A DNA stretch of 37,810 nucleotides, taken from the NCBI GenBank assembly GCA_021792655.1, contig JAJYUG010000007.1, positions 1-37,810 of the forward strand, written 5' to 3'. The position numbers and the translations under genes were made by a program. Under the pieces are notes generated by a model. The model was given only the letters and a program-made list of their open reading frames with translations. It was not told where the DNA came from and ran no database searches. Below are positions 18,723-24,925 of the stretch, one piece after another. This DNA comes from Thermoplasmata archaeon (GTDB taxonomy: Archaea > Thermoplasmatota > Thermoplasmata > Thermoplasmatales > Thermoplasmataceae). Within the stretch, counting starts at the first letter, position 1. Every line of letters starts with the position of its first letter.

Positions 18723-20566
18723 TGTTGGAAGGAACGGATAAGGGGCTGAGATCTCGTATAAAAATTGGCCTGGAAATACATTTCCAGGTGTCAGATGGCA
18801 AACTCTTCTGCAGGTGTCCTACGGAAACTACTTCTACTGAGCTTTTCAGATTTGAAAGGCGGATGATTGCAACGGCCAGTGAAATGGGTTCCATGGACAG
18901 GGCTGCAAAATACGAAATGGAACGGAACCTGCTTTCTGAGTACGTTGCCGGTGAAAACTCCTGCCTCGTAGAATATGATGAAGAGCCACCGCACGAAGTT
19001 GACGGGAAAGCACTGAAAGCTGCACTGATAGCTTCCCTTGCGCTCAACTGCAAGGTGCTGGACAACATATTCTTTATGAGGAAGGTCGTTGTGGACGGAT
19101 CAAACACATCCGGTTTCCAGCGCACCGCCATAATTGCCCTAAATGGGTGGGTTGCGACTTCAAGGGGAAAAGTTCGGATTTCAAGTGTCTCGCTGGAGGA
19201 AGATTCGGCAAGGCTTCTGGAAAATGGGGATGGAAGGAGCATATATTCTCTGGATCGCCTTGGCATTCCACTCATAGAGATTGCGACCGAGCCTGACATC
19301 ATTGATGAGCATCACGCAGTCGAGACAGCGAAGGCAATTGGGTATTTCGTGCAGGCAAGCGGTTTCTCGAGAATGACAGTCGATGCAATCAGGCAGGACG
19401 TTAATGTCTCGTTTGGATATGGCCGGGTAGAGATAAAGGGAGTGCAGAAACTTTCACTCATACCTGAAGTGATTTCATACGAACTTTCCAGGCAGGAGTC
19501 ACTTCGTGACATATCTGAGAAATCATCGCAATACTTAGACTTCTACAGGGAGGAACCGCAAGTTCACGATGTAACAGATATGTTCAGGGATACAGGATCA
19601 AAAGTTCTGCTTTCCAATATGGGGGTCGGCAATAGGATTTACTCAACCATTCTCAGGGGAATGGGCGGGCTTATGAAAAGCGGTAAGTACAGGATGGGGA
19701 AGGAACTTGCCGATCTCGTAAGAAGATATGGTGTCAAGGGACTATTCCATTCGGATGAATTGCCTGGCTACGGCATAACAAAGGAAGAGATTGATAGGCT
19801 CTGGTCGAAAACGAAGAAAGCGGATGAGGACGCAGTCCTGCTTATTGCCTGCCCACCTTCACTCTCAGAAGTGCTTTTCATGGAAATATTTTCAAGAATG
19901 GCAAAGTTACTTCAGATGGATCTGACTGAAACCAGATTTGCTGCTGATGACGGTTCGACTTTCTTTCTGAGGCCAATGCCTGGAAGGGAGAGGATGTATC
20001 CGGAAACGGACGTGCCGATCTTACGCATAAGTGACGTAACAATCCATGCAATGAGGAATGATGTCCCCTTGCCAATGGAGGAGACAATTTCCATGATATC
20101 CAGGGATTACGGATTATCAGCTCAGGATGCATACGTGATAGTTTCAACTTTCAGGAAGGTGCAGCTGGATAAACTGAGCTCGCTATACAAACATCCGAAG
20201 ATCGTTGCCAGGTTTATTATGCAGACATTGCCTGAACTGGAAAAGAAATATGGCAGAAAACTTGAACAACCCAAACTGACAAGACTCTTCGCTATAGCAG
20301 GGGAGAAGAACTGGATAAGGGAGGTGCTTGAAAAAGCTGCTGATTTAATGCTTTCAGGCGGACTGGACCCAGATGCTGTCGCGGGTGAGGAAGAATTATC
20401 CCAGCTCAGTGAAGATGAACTGAGGGAAATTATTGTGAAACTTCTCGCATCTTCAGAAAGTGAAACCAATGAGAGAAATATCATAGCCCGGGTCAAGAAA
20501 GAGACGGGAAGGCCATTCGACGCAGCCCAGGCAATGAAGGTGTACAAATCCGTGTCTAAAATATAG
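18722..20566 (+). CDS. gatE: Glu-tRNA(Gln) amidotransferase subunit E
   Basis: 614 aa, GTG start; KIGLEIHFQVSDGKLFCRCPTE, VVDGSNTSGFQRTAIIA, EEDSARL, DRLGIPLIEIATEPD, RQDVNVSF. Confidence 0.96.
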   Translation: MLEGTDKGLRSRIKIGLEIHFQVSDGKLFCRCPTETTSTELFRFERRMIATASEMGSMDRAAKYEMERNLLSEYVAGENSCLVEYDEEPPHEVDGKALKAALIASLALNCKVLDNIFFMRKVVVDGSNTSGFQRTAIIALNGWVATSRGKVRISSVSLEEDSARLLENGDGRSIYSLDRLGIPLIEIATEPDIIDEHHAVETAKAIGYFVQASGFSRMTVDAIRQDVNVSFGYGRVEIKGVQKLSLIPEVISYELSRQESLRDISEKSSQYLDFYREEPQVHDVTDMFRDTGSKVLLSNMGVGNRIYSTILRGMGGLMKSGKYRMGKELADLVRRYGVKGLFHSDELPGYGITKEEIDRLWSKTKKADEDAVLLIACPPSLSEVLFMEIFSRMAKLLQMDLTETRFAADDGSTFFLRPMPGRERMYPETDVPILRISDVTIHAMRNDVPLPMEETISMISRDYGLSAQDAYVIVSTFRKVQLDKLSSLYKHPKIVARFIMQTLPELEKKYGRKLEQPKLTRLFAIAGEKNWIREVLEKAADLMLSGGLDPDAVAGEEELSQLSEDELREIIVKLLASSESETNERNIIARVKKETGRPFDAAQAMKVYKSVSKI

Positions 20567-20638
20567 GATTTCCTGGTTTGTCGTTAACGAAAACTTCAGC
20601 ATATTTTCTAGAATATATTTGGTGCAGGTTTGAAAAGT

Positions 20639-20656
20639 GTTTTTTTGTTTTCTCTA
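20639..20656 (+). terminator. T-rich putative archaeal transcription terminator of gatDE
   Basis: tgtttttttgttttctct about 75 nt downstream of the gatE stop. Confidence 0.4.
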
Positions 20657-20741
20657 TCTAATCTGCAACCACCTCTTTTGGTGATTTTTTATTGCTCCCC
20701 TTTGCTCTCACATTGATAAAGGTAGAAAAAGAGTTTATCCC

Positions 20742-20940
20742 TTAACTCCTCAATTTTTTACATGATATGTCCAGGTCTATCCCAAGTTTTTTCGCGAGCT
20801 CCCTGAACTTTTCGGGATCTCGCTCATAATCCTTTAATTAATGCCTTGGAACAGCCATCAATTCAGATACAAGTACAAATATTATTAATTCACAAGTCTT
20901 AAAGGGGACCAAACGTCTCCATGATCTTGTCGCCATCCAT
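20742..20940 (-). pseudogene. decayed ORF fragment(s)
   Basis: Minus-strand reading gives MDGDKIMETFGPL(stop) and, after a further in-frame stop, LKDYERDPEKFRELAKKLGIDLDISCKKLRS(stop); protein-like composition but interrupted. Confidence 0.3.
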
Positions 20941-21035
20941 GTGAATTCAGATTATTTTTTTTTACATCCATTGATCTATGCTTGTTCGGAATATTCTAGT
21001 TACCTAAAGGATTTTAGAAGTAAAAATTAAGCTAA

Positions 21036-21053
21036 CGAAATACTTATATATAA
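21036..21053 (+). promoter_or_regulatory. BRE + TATA box of the accessory cassette
   Basis: cgaaat (BRE-like) followed by acttatatataa; followed by SD ggaggtg (21074-21080), 5 nt before the TTG start at 21086. Confidence 0.6.
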
Positions 21054-21085
21054 TTAACTCGTATAATAAATTTGGAGGTGAAAAC

Positions 21086-21619
21086 TTGGAGGCATATAAA
21101 ATAGAAAGACAGTTCTCTAGTGAATTTGTGAACTTGAATTCAAACCTTAGACTCTCTATTCCTGAAGAAAATAAAAGCAAAGTCAACATGGATAAATACA
21201 AACAGTGGGGGAAAAGTATAGTCGTTGTAGCGATAATCCTTCTAGCAGCTGGCGTACCCCTTTATGTGCTGGGTGAAATAGGCATGTCTCAGGTAGCTCC
21301 CATTGCAATCTCCGGCAATAATGCTCAAGTCGGGACCCCAAGTGCTGATTTCATTGCATTTGAAATATGGCACTTTGGTCAGTGGCCCACAATAACACAA
21401 CTCGCCCAAATGTTGACTGGTCCATTGATAGAGATTGGTCTTGGATTCCTCGCGCCTTATGTTGTGGCCATAGCATCGTTCATCATGGCAGCAATCTCTG
21501 CGTACGGTCTTAGTGCATCTAGTATAATATTTGGACTTCAATACTGGGCTGCTACAGCTTCTTTGGCACTTAATCCTTATGTCCTTGCAGGGTTTGGATT
21601 AGCAGTACTATCTGCTTGA
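21086..21619 (+). CDS. hydrophobic precursor-like membrane/secreted protein (candidate archaeocin precursor)
   Basis: 177 aa, TTG start with strong SD; charged N-terminal ~43 aa, one TM/signal-like helix (SIVVVAIILLAAGVPLYVL), then ~110 aa of hydrophobic Gly/Ala-rich helical segments with no Lys or Arg. Confidence 0.7.
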   Translation: MEAYKIERQFSSEFVNLNSNLRLSIPEENKSKVNMDKYKQWGKSIVVVAIILLAAGVPLYVLGEIGMSQVAPIAISGNNAQVGTPSADFIAFEIWHFGQWPTITQLAQMLTGPLIEIGLGFLAPYVVAIASFIMAAISAYGLSASSIIFGLQYWAATASLALNPYVLAGFGLAVLSA

Positions 21620-21651
21620 CGATTTGAACTAAACCTAGGTTATACCTAAAC

Positions 21652-22530
21652 ATGAAAATAGACATCAAGGGTTTGGAACTGTTGCTCTACTGTGCTTTCA
21701 TGGGCTTTATTGGGGAAGTAATTTTGCTAAAATCCCTAATTTTTCTATATTTGATGCTACTGAGTTGGATTGTTCCGTTTTCCATAGGAACACTTTTCAT
21801 ATTCTATGGTAAGAGACGACTTGATTCAATACTCAATCCATATACTATGAACCCTCTTTACGTTTCGTTAATAACTTCAGGTCTTGCTACTGTAGTCTCC
21901 TTTGGTCTATCGATATATTTCATTGCTTTCATAAATATTACACTCTTTGCTTGTTTTCTTTTGTTTTTTGAGTACAGAACCACAAAAAAATTGAAACTTT
22001 ACTCAGAATCTCAAGAAATGACTGAAAGGCTAGTCAAATTGCTCGGAGATCATTCAAAACAAAATCTGAAAATAGGAACAGAAATAAATTATATGGGAGG
22101 GGTAGCTTATGTTGGAAAATTATTGAGAAGGCAGGGGATTATCATATTCGACGAAGCTCTTTACAAGTCTCTAACGGAAAAAGAATTCGAATGCCTTCTA
22201 ATGCATGAATATTCACATTATATAAACATGGACCTCACGAAGATGGCCCTATCCTTTATGTTTATCCTGCTTCTATATTTGAATGCCTTTCTTATTGCAT
22301 TCAAGTTTCTTTTTTTGTCTAACAATATTTTCTTTATAATTGTGGCTTCTATCTTAGCACTGTTGGAAATATTTTCCTTACCACTCTTTCTCCCAAAAGC
22401 CCTCAATGTTATCGATCAACATCTGGAAAACAAGGCAGACAGGTTCTCAGCTATGGAAGTCAAGGAAGGATGCATGAAAGAATTCAGGGAAACACATGAA
22501 ATTTCGTTCCAGAGAAAGATTCTCTTTTAA
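21652..22530 (+). CDS. integral-membrane M48-type zinc metalloprotease
   Basis: 292 aa; HEYSH (HExxH, residues 185-189) and ENKAD (ExxAD, residues 259-263), with multiple TM helices. Confidence 0.85.
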   Translation: MKIDIKGLELLLYCAFMGFIGEVILLKSLIFLYLMLLSWIVPFSIGTLFIFYGKRRLDSILNPYTMNPLYVSLITSGLATVVSFGLSIYFIAFINITLFACFLLFFEYRTTKKLKLYSESQEMTERLVKLLGDHSKQNLKIGTEINYMGGVAYVGKLLRRQGIIIFDEALYKSLTEKEFECLLMHEYSHYINMDLTKMALSFMFILLLYLNAFLIAFKFLFLSNNIFFIIVASILALLEIFSLPLFLPKALNVIDQHLENKADRFSAMEVKEGCMKEFRETHEISFQRKILF

Positions 22531-22591
22531 CTTTTTAAGATGTAGGTAGGTGTCTTTTGCATCAAGTTTATGATGGAGTACAGGTGATTAC

Positions 22592-23686
22592 ATGAAAATA
22601 AAAATCTCAAGTTCGCAAGACAAAGTTTCGGGTTTGGCACAATCATACATCTTATCAAGTGTCTCTGAGCGATTCATAGTGTATCTCGTTGAAATTGTTT
22701 TTGTATTATCCCTCTCCGAGATCTTTGCTTCATTAGTAGGAATCAAACCATACCTGTTTAATGCCATGGTAAGTTACAGACTCGGGGAACTATCCTTTAG
22801 CTATTTGTTGTCAAGAGGGTTTATAATTAACACGGTCATATTTATCACGATAGTTTTTATCTACTTTCTGATCGAAGAAGTCTCCGGGTACGGGGTTGGG
22901 CGTATTCTTGCTAACAAGTATATAATAAATAGATACGTTCAGTCTAAAGATAGCAGGATTGTTGCACACGTTATACGGGCAGCGCTGAAATCTTTTCCAC
23001 TATTTGTCTTCGTAGATAGTATCTTAATCTTTAGGAGGAACAATAGAAAATTTCTGCAAAGAGCATCGGACGCTGCTCTAGGGTTTCTTGTCGTTAAGAA
23101 GAAAATTAGCGCTTCGAAGAAGTATGAAAATTTAATGGACTATTTGAAGTTATATGTTTTGGGAGCTTCTATAATGTATTATTCGTTGTTTATTTCGACA
23201 TTTATTATATCTTGGATGATTGTGCCAATGGTAACGTCAACCAGTGGAACGGGACAGTCCAGAGTGAATTTTTTAAATGAATTTGTATCTATACTGTCTC
23301 AGAATATACCGTTTGATTTCTATCTTGTTACAGGTGGAATGACGCTGTCTTTCGGTTCGTTGCTTTTTTTAGTTGAATCGTTGGACTCTGAGAATGCAAT
23401 TCTAGTGAGCATACTAAAGTCACCTTCTTCAGTCAATTTCATTAATGGAGTACTTCCTCAATTCATTCCGGAATCCCTAGGTTATGTTTTTGGGCTATCT
23501 GCGGCATTTTCGATAGCTAGCCTCATTATAAATTTCGTGCAATCAATGATTAATAAACAGGCTTCATTGTCATTCGCGAATGCTTCAGCACGTAATTTAA
23601 AGTATGCTTTAGCCTCAGTAAGCATATCCCTCGTCCTTTTGGTTTTCGCAGCATGTATCGAAGCGTCCCTCTTCCTATTAGGCTGA
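22592..23686 (+). CDS. polytopic membrane protein; RDD-like N-terminal half and SpoIIM/DUF95-like C-terminal half
   Basis: 364 aa; GVGRILANKYIINRYVQ...AALKSFPLFVFVDSILIF...QRASDAALGFLVVKK resembles RDD; INGVLPQFIPESLGYVFGLSAAFSIASLI resembles the SpoIIM/DUF95 signature region; SD aggtga upstream of ATG. Confidence 0.6.
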   Translation: MKIKISSSQDKVSGLAQSYILSSVSERFIVYLVEIVFVLSLSEIFASLVGIKPYLFNAMVSYRLGELSFSYLLSRGFIINTVIFITIVFIYFLIEEVSGYGVGRILANKYIINRYVQSKDSRIVAHVIRAALKSFPLFVFVDSILIFRRNNRKFLQRASDAALGFLVVKKKISASKKYENLMDYLKLYVLGASIMYYSLFISTFIISWMIVPMVTSTSGTGQSRVNFLNEFVSILSQNIPFDFYLVTGGMTLSFGSLLFLVESLDSENAILVSILKSPSSVNFINGVLPQFIPESLGYVFGLSAAFSIASLIINFVQSMINKQASLSFANASARNLKYALASVSISLVLLVFAACIEASLFLLG

Positions 23687-23813
23687 TGATTTCGAATAAG
23701 ACCTTGGATCTGCACTGGTCTTTCCCGATCGCAAAAATATCGCGAGAAATGTTGCAATATTCCTTAAAGACTGCCATCATTCTCTGATTTTTCTTGTTTA
23801 TTTCGGGAAAAAT

Positions 23814-24780
23814 CTATGGTTTACGGTATCCCTGTAGGATTTTTCGAGCATGAACAATGTATCCAAAGCATGCAAACATGAACTTCACCCTCACCCTTCT
23901 TTGTACAAGGGTGACTATTACATGTGAAAAATGAAACAGCCTCTTCATAACAGCATACGGGTATTCTAGCATGGACCGTTTCCTGGATATCCTTCGGTTT
24001 CTTCTGAGGGATTGAATGGACAGTTTATGATTCTTCACTGCCTTTTCCCTTGTATCATCAATGCCCATTGGATGGGATCCGAAGTATCTCTTGTCCCGGT
24101 ATACCGTTGTTCCACCCTTTGAAAGATCGATTCTTGTGTCATGATCCTTTTCTGTGGTGACAACGTAAGATCGGATCACAGGGGAAGGATTGTTGTCATC
24201 AACGAGGCTTTGACCCTTGTACCCGAAGAATGTCCCATTGTTCTTTCTGGTGAACGGACCATCCTTCGATCTCCTTGTTTTACCTTCAGACCCGGGTTCT
24301 TCATGCTTTTGATGCCCAGGAGCGGAAGTGATGAAAAGACATCCTGAGCTGGTCTCTCCTTGACTCAGATGACTTTCGCCCCATTTGATGCTGAAGCTCA
24401 TTCCATATTATAAGATCCCTGCCTGTTTTCAACAACCGTTCCCTGAAGTATCATATGGTCTTTGCATCCGGCAACAGATCGGGATAATCCAGGAGGCCCA
24501 TGAATGATATCCTATCGCGTATGTGTGTTTCTGCCTGTTCATCAACTATGTTGAATATGCTCTGTAGAAAGAGGACTTTGACTACGGTAACAATTGGAAT
24601 GTTTGGTTCTCCTCCTTTGTCTGTATGATAGTGGTACAGATCATTCAGGACTCGAGGAAAGGCAGTCCAGTCTATTACAGCCTTCGCGAATGCAAAGGGA
24701 TTTTTGATTGCATTTGTCCTGTACTTCTCATTTATTGCCTCGTCAAGAAGACTGCTCATGCAGTAACATGGCTGTTTCAT
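23814..24780 (-). pseudogene. IS5-family (DUF772 / DDE) transposase, disrupted
   Basis: N-terminal piece (24451-24780) MSSLLDEAINEKYRTNAIKNPFAFAKAVIDW...DLLPDAKTI; stop TGA at 24453-24451 then readable YFRERLLKTGRDLIIWNELQHQMGRK in the same frame; C-terminal piece (23814-24401) FITSAPGHQKHE...KTRRSKDGPFTRKNNGTFFGYKGQSLVDD...RISRKRSMLEYPYAVMKR in another frame. Confidence 0.88.
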
Positions 24781-24925
24781 GAATAAATATTATTGTTACC
24801 TGATCTGATCATGAAGCGGAGTTTTTGGAAATCCTCATCAGGAATTTCGAGATTCAGAAGTGATTAAATTGTATGGGTTACGCGATCTTATGTACAGCCT
24901 GAAAAGAGCGAAATATTCGAGGAAA

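Follow-up and report, generated by a model that had tools for sequence, protein, structure and literature searches.

A recurrent precursor, protease and membrane protein cassette of Thermoplasmatales as a candidate archaeocin system

Gene clusters for circular bacteriocins typically encode a leader-core precursor and a SpoIIM membrane protein (PMC7132975, PMC6131525, PMC8659200), the latter being near-universal in them (PMC7132975). An M48 peptidase is encoded in two group-1 clusters of this kind, and no cyclase is known (PMC8659200). For membrane metalloproteases of the Abi/CPBP type, a role in bacteriocin immunity as well as in processing has been reported (PMC9298176, citing Kjos 2010), and the ribosomal antimicrobial proteins of Archaea include halocins and sulfolobicins (PMC12893001). 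The present analysis concerns three genes, here termed P (for a precursor), M (for an M48-family metalloprotease) and T (for a membrane protein with an RDD-like and a SpoIIM-like half), on a contig of 37,810 nucleotides from a Thermoplasmata archaeon (the window; JAJYUG010000007.1 of assembly GCA_021792655.1). They constitute a cassette that recurs in Thermoplasmatales and that we read, with a probability of roughly 0.6, as a bacteriocin-like (archaeocin) system with its own partner protease. Little is known about the peptide weapons of Archaea; Thermoplasmatales are common acid-mine archaea without an S-layer, and, to our knowledge, neither an archaeocin producer nor a peptide weapon has been described among them. 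No earlier description of the cassette was found in the searchable literature, a scope that does not include the 2019 survey by Makarova et al., which reportedly covered archaeal antimicrobial candidates.

Components and recurrence of the cassette

P, M and T occupy positions 21086-23686 of the window, all on the forward strand and with intergenic gaps of 32 and 61 nt. P (21086..21619) encodes a protein of 177 aa and begins with TTG at 21086, in line with the ME.Y..N start that is conserved among its relatives. The leader (residues 1-72; 21086..21301) consists of a charged N-terminus and one hydrophobic helix and extends to an invariant proline (Pro72). The core (residues 88-177; 21347..21616) starts from the conserved DFIAFEIWHFGQWP motif; across the P family, its onset lies near a conserved (D/N)IVxYExxHWGxxP-type motif, and its end lies at a fixed place, where the residues are mostly small or aromatic. 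This core is hydrophobic, has five predicted helices and contains neither Lys nor Arg. Indeed, the final 134 residues of the window P are devoid of both, whereas for 342 other open reading frames (ORFs) with a length of 140 aa or more, the longest Lys/Arg-free run measures 34.5 residues at the median and 75 at the 95th percentile; the first-pass annotation, made from the letters alone, had already pointed to such a hydrophobic body. In the P family, Lys and Arg account for 40 of 3412 residues after Pro72 (1.2%), compared with 8.2% in T. An AlphaFold model of P contained the five core helices with a pLDDT of ~85 over most of the core; the leader was modeled with low confidence, and the value for the whole protein was 66. 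P matched no family in Pfam or NCBIfam, and a search of its profile against the PDB returned nothing relevant. Directly upstream of one P gene (L089:3360-4274), an ORF of 304 aa was observed, which has a Lys/Arg-free run of 137 residues.

M (21652..22530, forward strand; 292 aa) belongs to peptidase family M48. It is membrane-embedded, matches Pfam PF01435 (E 1.1e-7; 32.3 bits vs a cut-off of 20.3) and has a complete active site, with HEYSH at residues 185-189 (22204-22218) and ENKAD at residues 259-263 (22426-22440), which agrees with the HExxH...ExxAD site initially proposed. Among its relatives, 27 of 30 matched the M48 profile at E<=0.01, and the HExxH residues were retained in 35 of 38 proteins; the third zinc ligand of these 38 is Glu in 28, Gln in eight and another residue in two, which suggests an active site that is usually, not always, standard M48. 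Identity between the window M and the M of other cassettes is only 13-21%, and the N-terminal membrane region is very variable. In one unit (L086:4364; G043:C23), an M lacking HExxH adjoins a second, intact M. Membrane proteins resembling M at L109:897-1871 and L120:1292-2284 also lack HExxH and may be inactive partners.

T (22592..23686, forward strand; 364 aa) comprises an RDD-like N-terminal and a SpoIIM/DUF95-like C-terminal half. Its invariant positions are N238, G249, P289, F291, E294, Y298, A354 and E357, most of which lie in the SpoIIM-like half. The window copy had no Pfam match at E<=0.1, but SpoIIM (PF01944) was matched by 11 of 18 full-length relatives (best 2.9e-9) and RDD by seven of these (best 3e-12). 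The profile matches identify T as an RDD plus SpoIIM protein at the level of the family only; the RDD/SpoIIM call of the first-pass annotation thus holds for the T family and not for the window copy alone.

The distribution of the cassette was assessed in 117 genomes of Thermoplasmatales, and the ORFs of 41 loci were mapped with iterative profiles. These loci contained reading frames for 35 P, 41 M and 36 T, fragments included. Complete trios were present in ~14 genomes, among them E-plasma, several Thermoplasmata metagenome bins and the cultured and sequenced Ferroplasma acidarmanus Fer1 (NC_021592.1), in which the predictions made here can be tested; the P profile matched 21 of the 117. The gene order was conserved, mostly on one strand, with P divergent from M and T in two genomes (L094, L095). 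This survey of the neighborhoods demonstrates that the three genes recur together well beyond chance, with the precursor varying. Outside the order, scans of 300 class-level and 393 phylum-level genomes detected no full-length T, and the weaker matches there mainly covered the RDD half. When contigs were scanned with a single pattern derived from T, the matches were Thermoplasmata and one DHVE2-group fragment, no T relative was present in viral contigs, and the PADLOC models of anti-phage defence did not match the cassette. The M genes of L002 (G000:C72) and L010 (G111:C120) look near-identical by eye, although their bins are assigned to different genera, which may reflect either recent transfer or bin contamination.

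Co-variation, decay and insertion

P copies within one genome, arrays included, have leaders that are 83-100% identical, whereas their cores share only 26-51% and the corresponding M proteins 23-63% identity. Mantel correlations computed on 27 P-M pairs were high for leader and T (r = 0.91) and for core and M (0.74), as opposed to leader and core (0.30), leader and M (0.30) and M and T (0.27). Core and M remained correlated when the leader was held constant (0.72; 1 in 1000 permutations), whereas the value for leader and M was 0.12 with the core held constant. The same division is visible in single pairs of genomes: between G065 and G063, leader (94%) and T (84%) are well conserved, whereas core (36%) and M (25%) are not, and the corresponding values for G064 and G069 are 73, 89, 34 and 24%. 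Orthologous-looking cassettes can, by these comparisons, differ in the core-M block alone. The match between leader and T is not solely due to shared ancestry because the two cassettes of G060, which have different T (29% identical), also differ in their leaders (32%); across genera, leaders accompanying similar T are 61-73% alike. In the window, a stretch covering core and M start (21360-21750) is 79.5% identical to G087 at the DNA level, and this match begins inside the core motif and does not include the leader. Taken together, the cassette appears, from sequence comparison, to have a constant leader, a variable core and a core-specific partner, the arrangement expected of a bacteriocin-like system. 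Where measurable, omega was 0.07-0.5, which places all parts of the cassette under purifying selection and therefore shows that the coding is real; positive selection on the core was not supported, omega reaching up to 0.5 in near-allelic comparisons.

Copy number and decay are likewise asymmetric. One array (G064) consists of four P-M pairs but only a single intact T, plus a T remnant, and tandem P-M pairs also occur in G042:C46, G065 and G043. P was never without an adjacent M in any complete locus. Conversely, M was intact while P was broken or gone in ~10 places (G060:C1:1352k, with a P remnant containing four stops; G111:C120; G000:C13; G000:C72; one unit of G064:C59; G042:C22; G048:C38; G048:C50; and two units of G043:C23, one of them that with the two M genes mentioned above); the reverse was observed once (G063:C31). 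M is the longer gene, and equal decay would therefore break M more often. The patchy distribution, the variable core and the decayed copies also indicate that the precursor is not a housekeeping protein.

A second arrangement, variant B, does not contain M48. In G043:C4 (L108:168-2863), it comprises a P-like gene interrupted by seven consecutive G, a 71-aa membrane protein with two helices, T and a protein of 325 aa that is weakly similar to Peptidase_S24. Copies in G061:C60 (L186) and G044:C1:961k (L188) are both decayed, and a related arrangement in G058 (L107, L187) has a different protein of 74 aa. The signal-peptidase-like (S24/S26) proteins of variant B are 325-327 aa long, and the cassettes of this type are mostly decayed, several copies with parts missing. 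As separate observations, the P genes of G043 are broken near homopolymers (an A-rich stretch in C23, L086:700-4300; the seven G in C4, L108:2720), which may reflect assembly error, decay or possibly phase variation, and the L086 array also contains transposase remnants.

The genome harboring the window (contig C46), placed in Thermoplasmatales by its named relatives, is a draft of 1.36 Mb, 89% complete, and is labeled G000 in the comparisons. Two more of its cassettes, L113 (G000:C13) and L002 (G000:C72), are decayed apart from an intact M (272 and ~276 aa, respectively). In the window, the three genes, with a GC content of 0.37-0.38 vs ~0.46 around them, are flanked by gatD/gatE upstream and by nuo genes downstream; coordinates and GC content confirm the co-directional, closely spaced, AT-rich cluster between gatDE and nuo that had been noted initially. 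The cassette is mobile: it lies in a segment of ~4.28 kb (20567..24848) inserted between gatE and nuoA and missing from the closest relative (G045; GatE 93% identical), where gatE and nuoA adjoin and thus represent the empty site. With blastn, the match of the window to G045 ends at 20566 and restarts at 24849, the 4.28 kb replacing ~130 bp, and two other genomes of the genus (G044 and G046) have an equally short gap between gatE and nuo. Clear direct repeats were not found at the ends of the segment. Its first part (20567-21085) has no evident gene; the first-pass annotation let its cassette begin at 20570, whereas the cassette proper begins at 21086.

Upstream of P, a putative TATA-box-like element of the archaeal type, CTTATATATA (21043..21052, forward strand), was read from the sequence 34 nt before the start, as was a ribosome-binding site, GGAGGTG (21074..21080, forward strand), 5 nt before the TTG. 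A scan for sigma-70 promoters, a model not made for archaea, gave no score above shuffles. Directly downstream of the cassette, the inserted segment carries at its downstream edge two transposase remnants on the reverse strand, one matching DDE_Tnp_1 (23814..24401; Pfam E 1.1e-4, slightly below the curated cut-off) and one the N-terminal part of DUF772 (24451..24780; Pfam E 1.4e-9). Elsewhere in the window, a tRNA-Leu (TAA) is encoded at 1948-2033 on the reverse strand.

A probable bacteriocin-like function and its rivals

The co-variation, the T shared within arrays and the decay in which M outlasts P resemble bacteriocin systems, and it is for this reason that we favor a bacteriocin-like function. 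P would be made as a leader attached to an antimicrobial core. T probably recognizes the leader (its charged tail and single membrane helix) and then releases or exports the core, because T follows the leader and is common to the units of an array. The core would be a bundle of hydrophobic helices nearly without Lys and Arg. At the very low outside pH at which these organisms live, its Asp and Glu residues would be protonated, rendering the core nearly uncharged and allowing it to enter the membrane of a competitor and kill it; the loss of Lys and Arg while Asp and Glu are kept would make sense because carboxylates are protonated at an outside pH of 1-2. M most likely serves self-protection, possibly also maturation, because it varies with the core, occurs in one copy for every P and, in the manner of immunity genes, outlasts P. 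Matched to each core, it would protect the producer by removing or sequestering the producer's own core from the membrane, and it may also cut the leader from the core. New specificities would arise by swapping the core-M block against a constant leader and T, by tandem duplication of P-M and by horizontal insertion. The suggestion in the first-pass annotation that T confers export, immunity or both would stand for export, which fits a T that follows the leader; self-protection would fall to M.

Several observations weigh against this function. The cassette contains no ATPase gene that could power export. Foldseek searches of the P and T models against the PDB returned no match at E<=0.001. 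Eight of the 38 M proteins have Gln as third ligand and three lack HExxH, so that proteolysis may not be universal. Core and M are neighbors, and block recombination or linkage alone could couple them; the correlation of leader and T partly reflects shared ancestry. The decay counts partly derive from draft assemblies, in which frameshifts may be errors, and the cases are partly non-independent, given the apparently near-identical M of G000:C72 and G111:C120 and one frameshift shared by the two cases of G043:C23. Finally, variant B swaps M48 for a signal-peptidase-like protein and a membrane protein of 71-74 aa, which means that M's main role could be maturation.

The last point leads to the rival that survives best, and which we consider possible, if only tentatively: the same weapon, in which M serves maturation alone, cleaving at the conserved motif between leader and core and perhaps ligating the ends, with T responsible for export as well as immunity. 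The retained HExxH residues (35 of 38), the existence of a conserved motif at the junction, the exchange of M48 for a signal-peptidase-like protein in variant B, and the presence of M48 and M50 peptidases in a few circular-bacteriocin clusters for which no cyclase is known (PMC8659200) are all consistent with it. On the other hand, M varies with the core and not with the leader, it persists where P and T were lost, and every P of an array is paired with a separate M despite the conserved junction motif. Maturation by M48 had been the original proposal; co-variation with the core and survival after the decay of P and T fit core-specific self-protection better than maturation only. A more far-reaching version, which we regard as doubtful, is that the cassettes represent a separate archaeal lineage of head-to-tail cyclized helical peptides, whose cognate M48 would cut off the leader and join the ends, whose RDD-SpoIIM protein would be an ATPase-free, leader-specific exporter, and whose Lys/Arg-free core would insert on acid. 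If true, a cyclizing M48 would be the maturation enzyme that is still missing in bacterial circular bacteriocins.

It is unlikely that P, M and T form a toxin-antitoxin or selfish maintenance module acting inside the cell, in which P would poison the membrane of the cell that makes it and be neutralized by M. While orphan M genes, the tight pairing of P and M and their mobility would all fit, the conserved leader with its membrane helix and the SpoIIM/RDD partner imply that P is handled at the membrane or across it, and so strong a diversification of the core is atypical of such pairs. Even less can be said for P as a signaling or developmental peptide of the quorum or pheromone type that does not kill and has a cognate membrane protease as receptor or processor. 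The cassette lacks a kinase or regulator, the core (a hydrophobic helical bundle of ~90 aa) is far larger than usual signals, and patchy distribution, insertion and decay are better explained by conflict genes, despite the fact that a variable core with a cognate partner is also known from peptide signaling systems and that purifying selection acts on all parts. An ordinary conserved operon of membrane proteins for a routine task, for example quality control of the membrane by an HtpX-like protease, would agree with the activity of M48/HtpX proteases in such control and with the presence of RDD and SpoIIM domains in unrelated operons, but was rejected on distribution, variability and decay, P being restricted to 21 of 117 genomes, multi-copy and frequently a pseudogene, with a hypervariable core and an insertion missing from the closest relative.

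Comparison with known systems

The bacteriocin-like function that we favor invites comparison with the circular bacteriocins (AS-48/uberolysin/carnocyclin and gassericin/acidocin B types). Like these, the cassette has a precursor with a leader and a hydrophobic helical core, and, via the T family (11 of 18 relatives), a SpoIIM/DUF95 membrane protein beside it; tandem P genes have a counterpart in clusters with several precursor copies. Unlike in these, only P, M and T are common to the loci, and an ABC ATPase is absent; SpoIIM is fused to RDD; the core is larger (~80-113 aa after Pro72) and nearly without Lys and Arg; the leader is conserved and has a membrane helix; and P-M-T includes no small cationic hydrophobic immunity protein, a membrane protein of 71-74 aa being present in variant B only. 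The TIGR03651 model of circular-bacteriocin precursors detected nothing over its cut-off in the 117 genomes. Four related short cores gave a shuffle Z of ~5 against AS-48, but the median Z was 0.1-0.9, the hhalign probability was 12%, and the likeness had been seen by eye before testing; it is suggestive only. Filing the cassette as a circular (class IId) bacteriocin was therefore rejected, as there is neither an ABC ATPase nor a known bacteriocin domain, nor a match to TIGR03651 over its cut-off, and a circular product is no more than a possibility. The reading as a recurrent, peptide-weapon-like cassette of Archaea with a variable precursor is supported, but the missing ATPase gene contradicts a mere counterpart of the circular-bacteriocin clusters of Firmicutes. 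Nevertheless, the cassette bears on the role of SpoIIM/DUF95 in bacteriocin export and on which enzyme matures circular bacteriocins.

Halocins and sulfolobicins were compared through family libraries only, and P had no match to such families in Pfam/NCBIfam. With the Abi/CPBP (CAAX-type) proteins, M has in common that a multi-spanning membrane metalloprotease is encoded beside a bacteriocin, but M is an M48 enzyme (HExxH...ExxAD) of other fold and motif. With the HtpX/Ste24-type M48 proteases, it shares the membrane-embedded M48 domain with HExxH and ExxAD; it differs from them by its very variable N-terminal membrane region and by being tied to a peptide gene.

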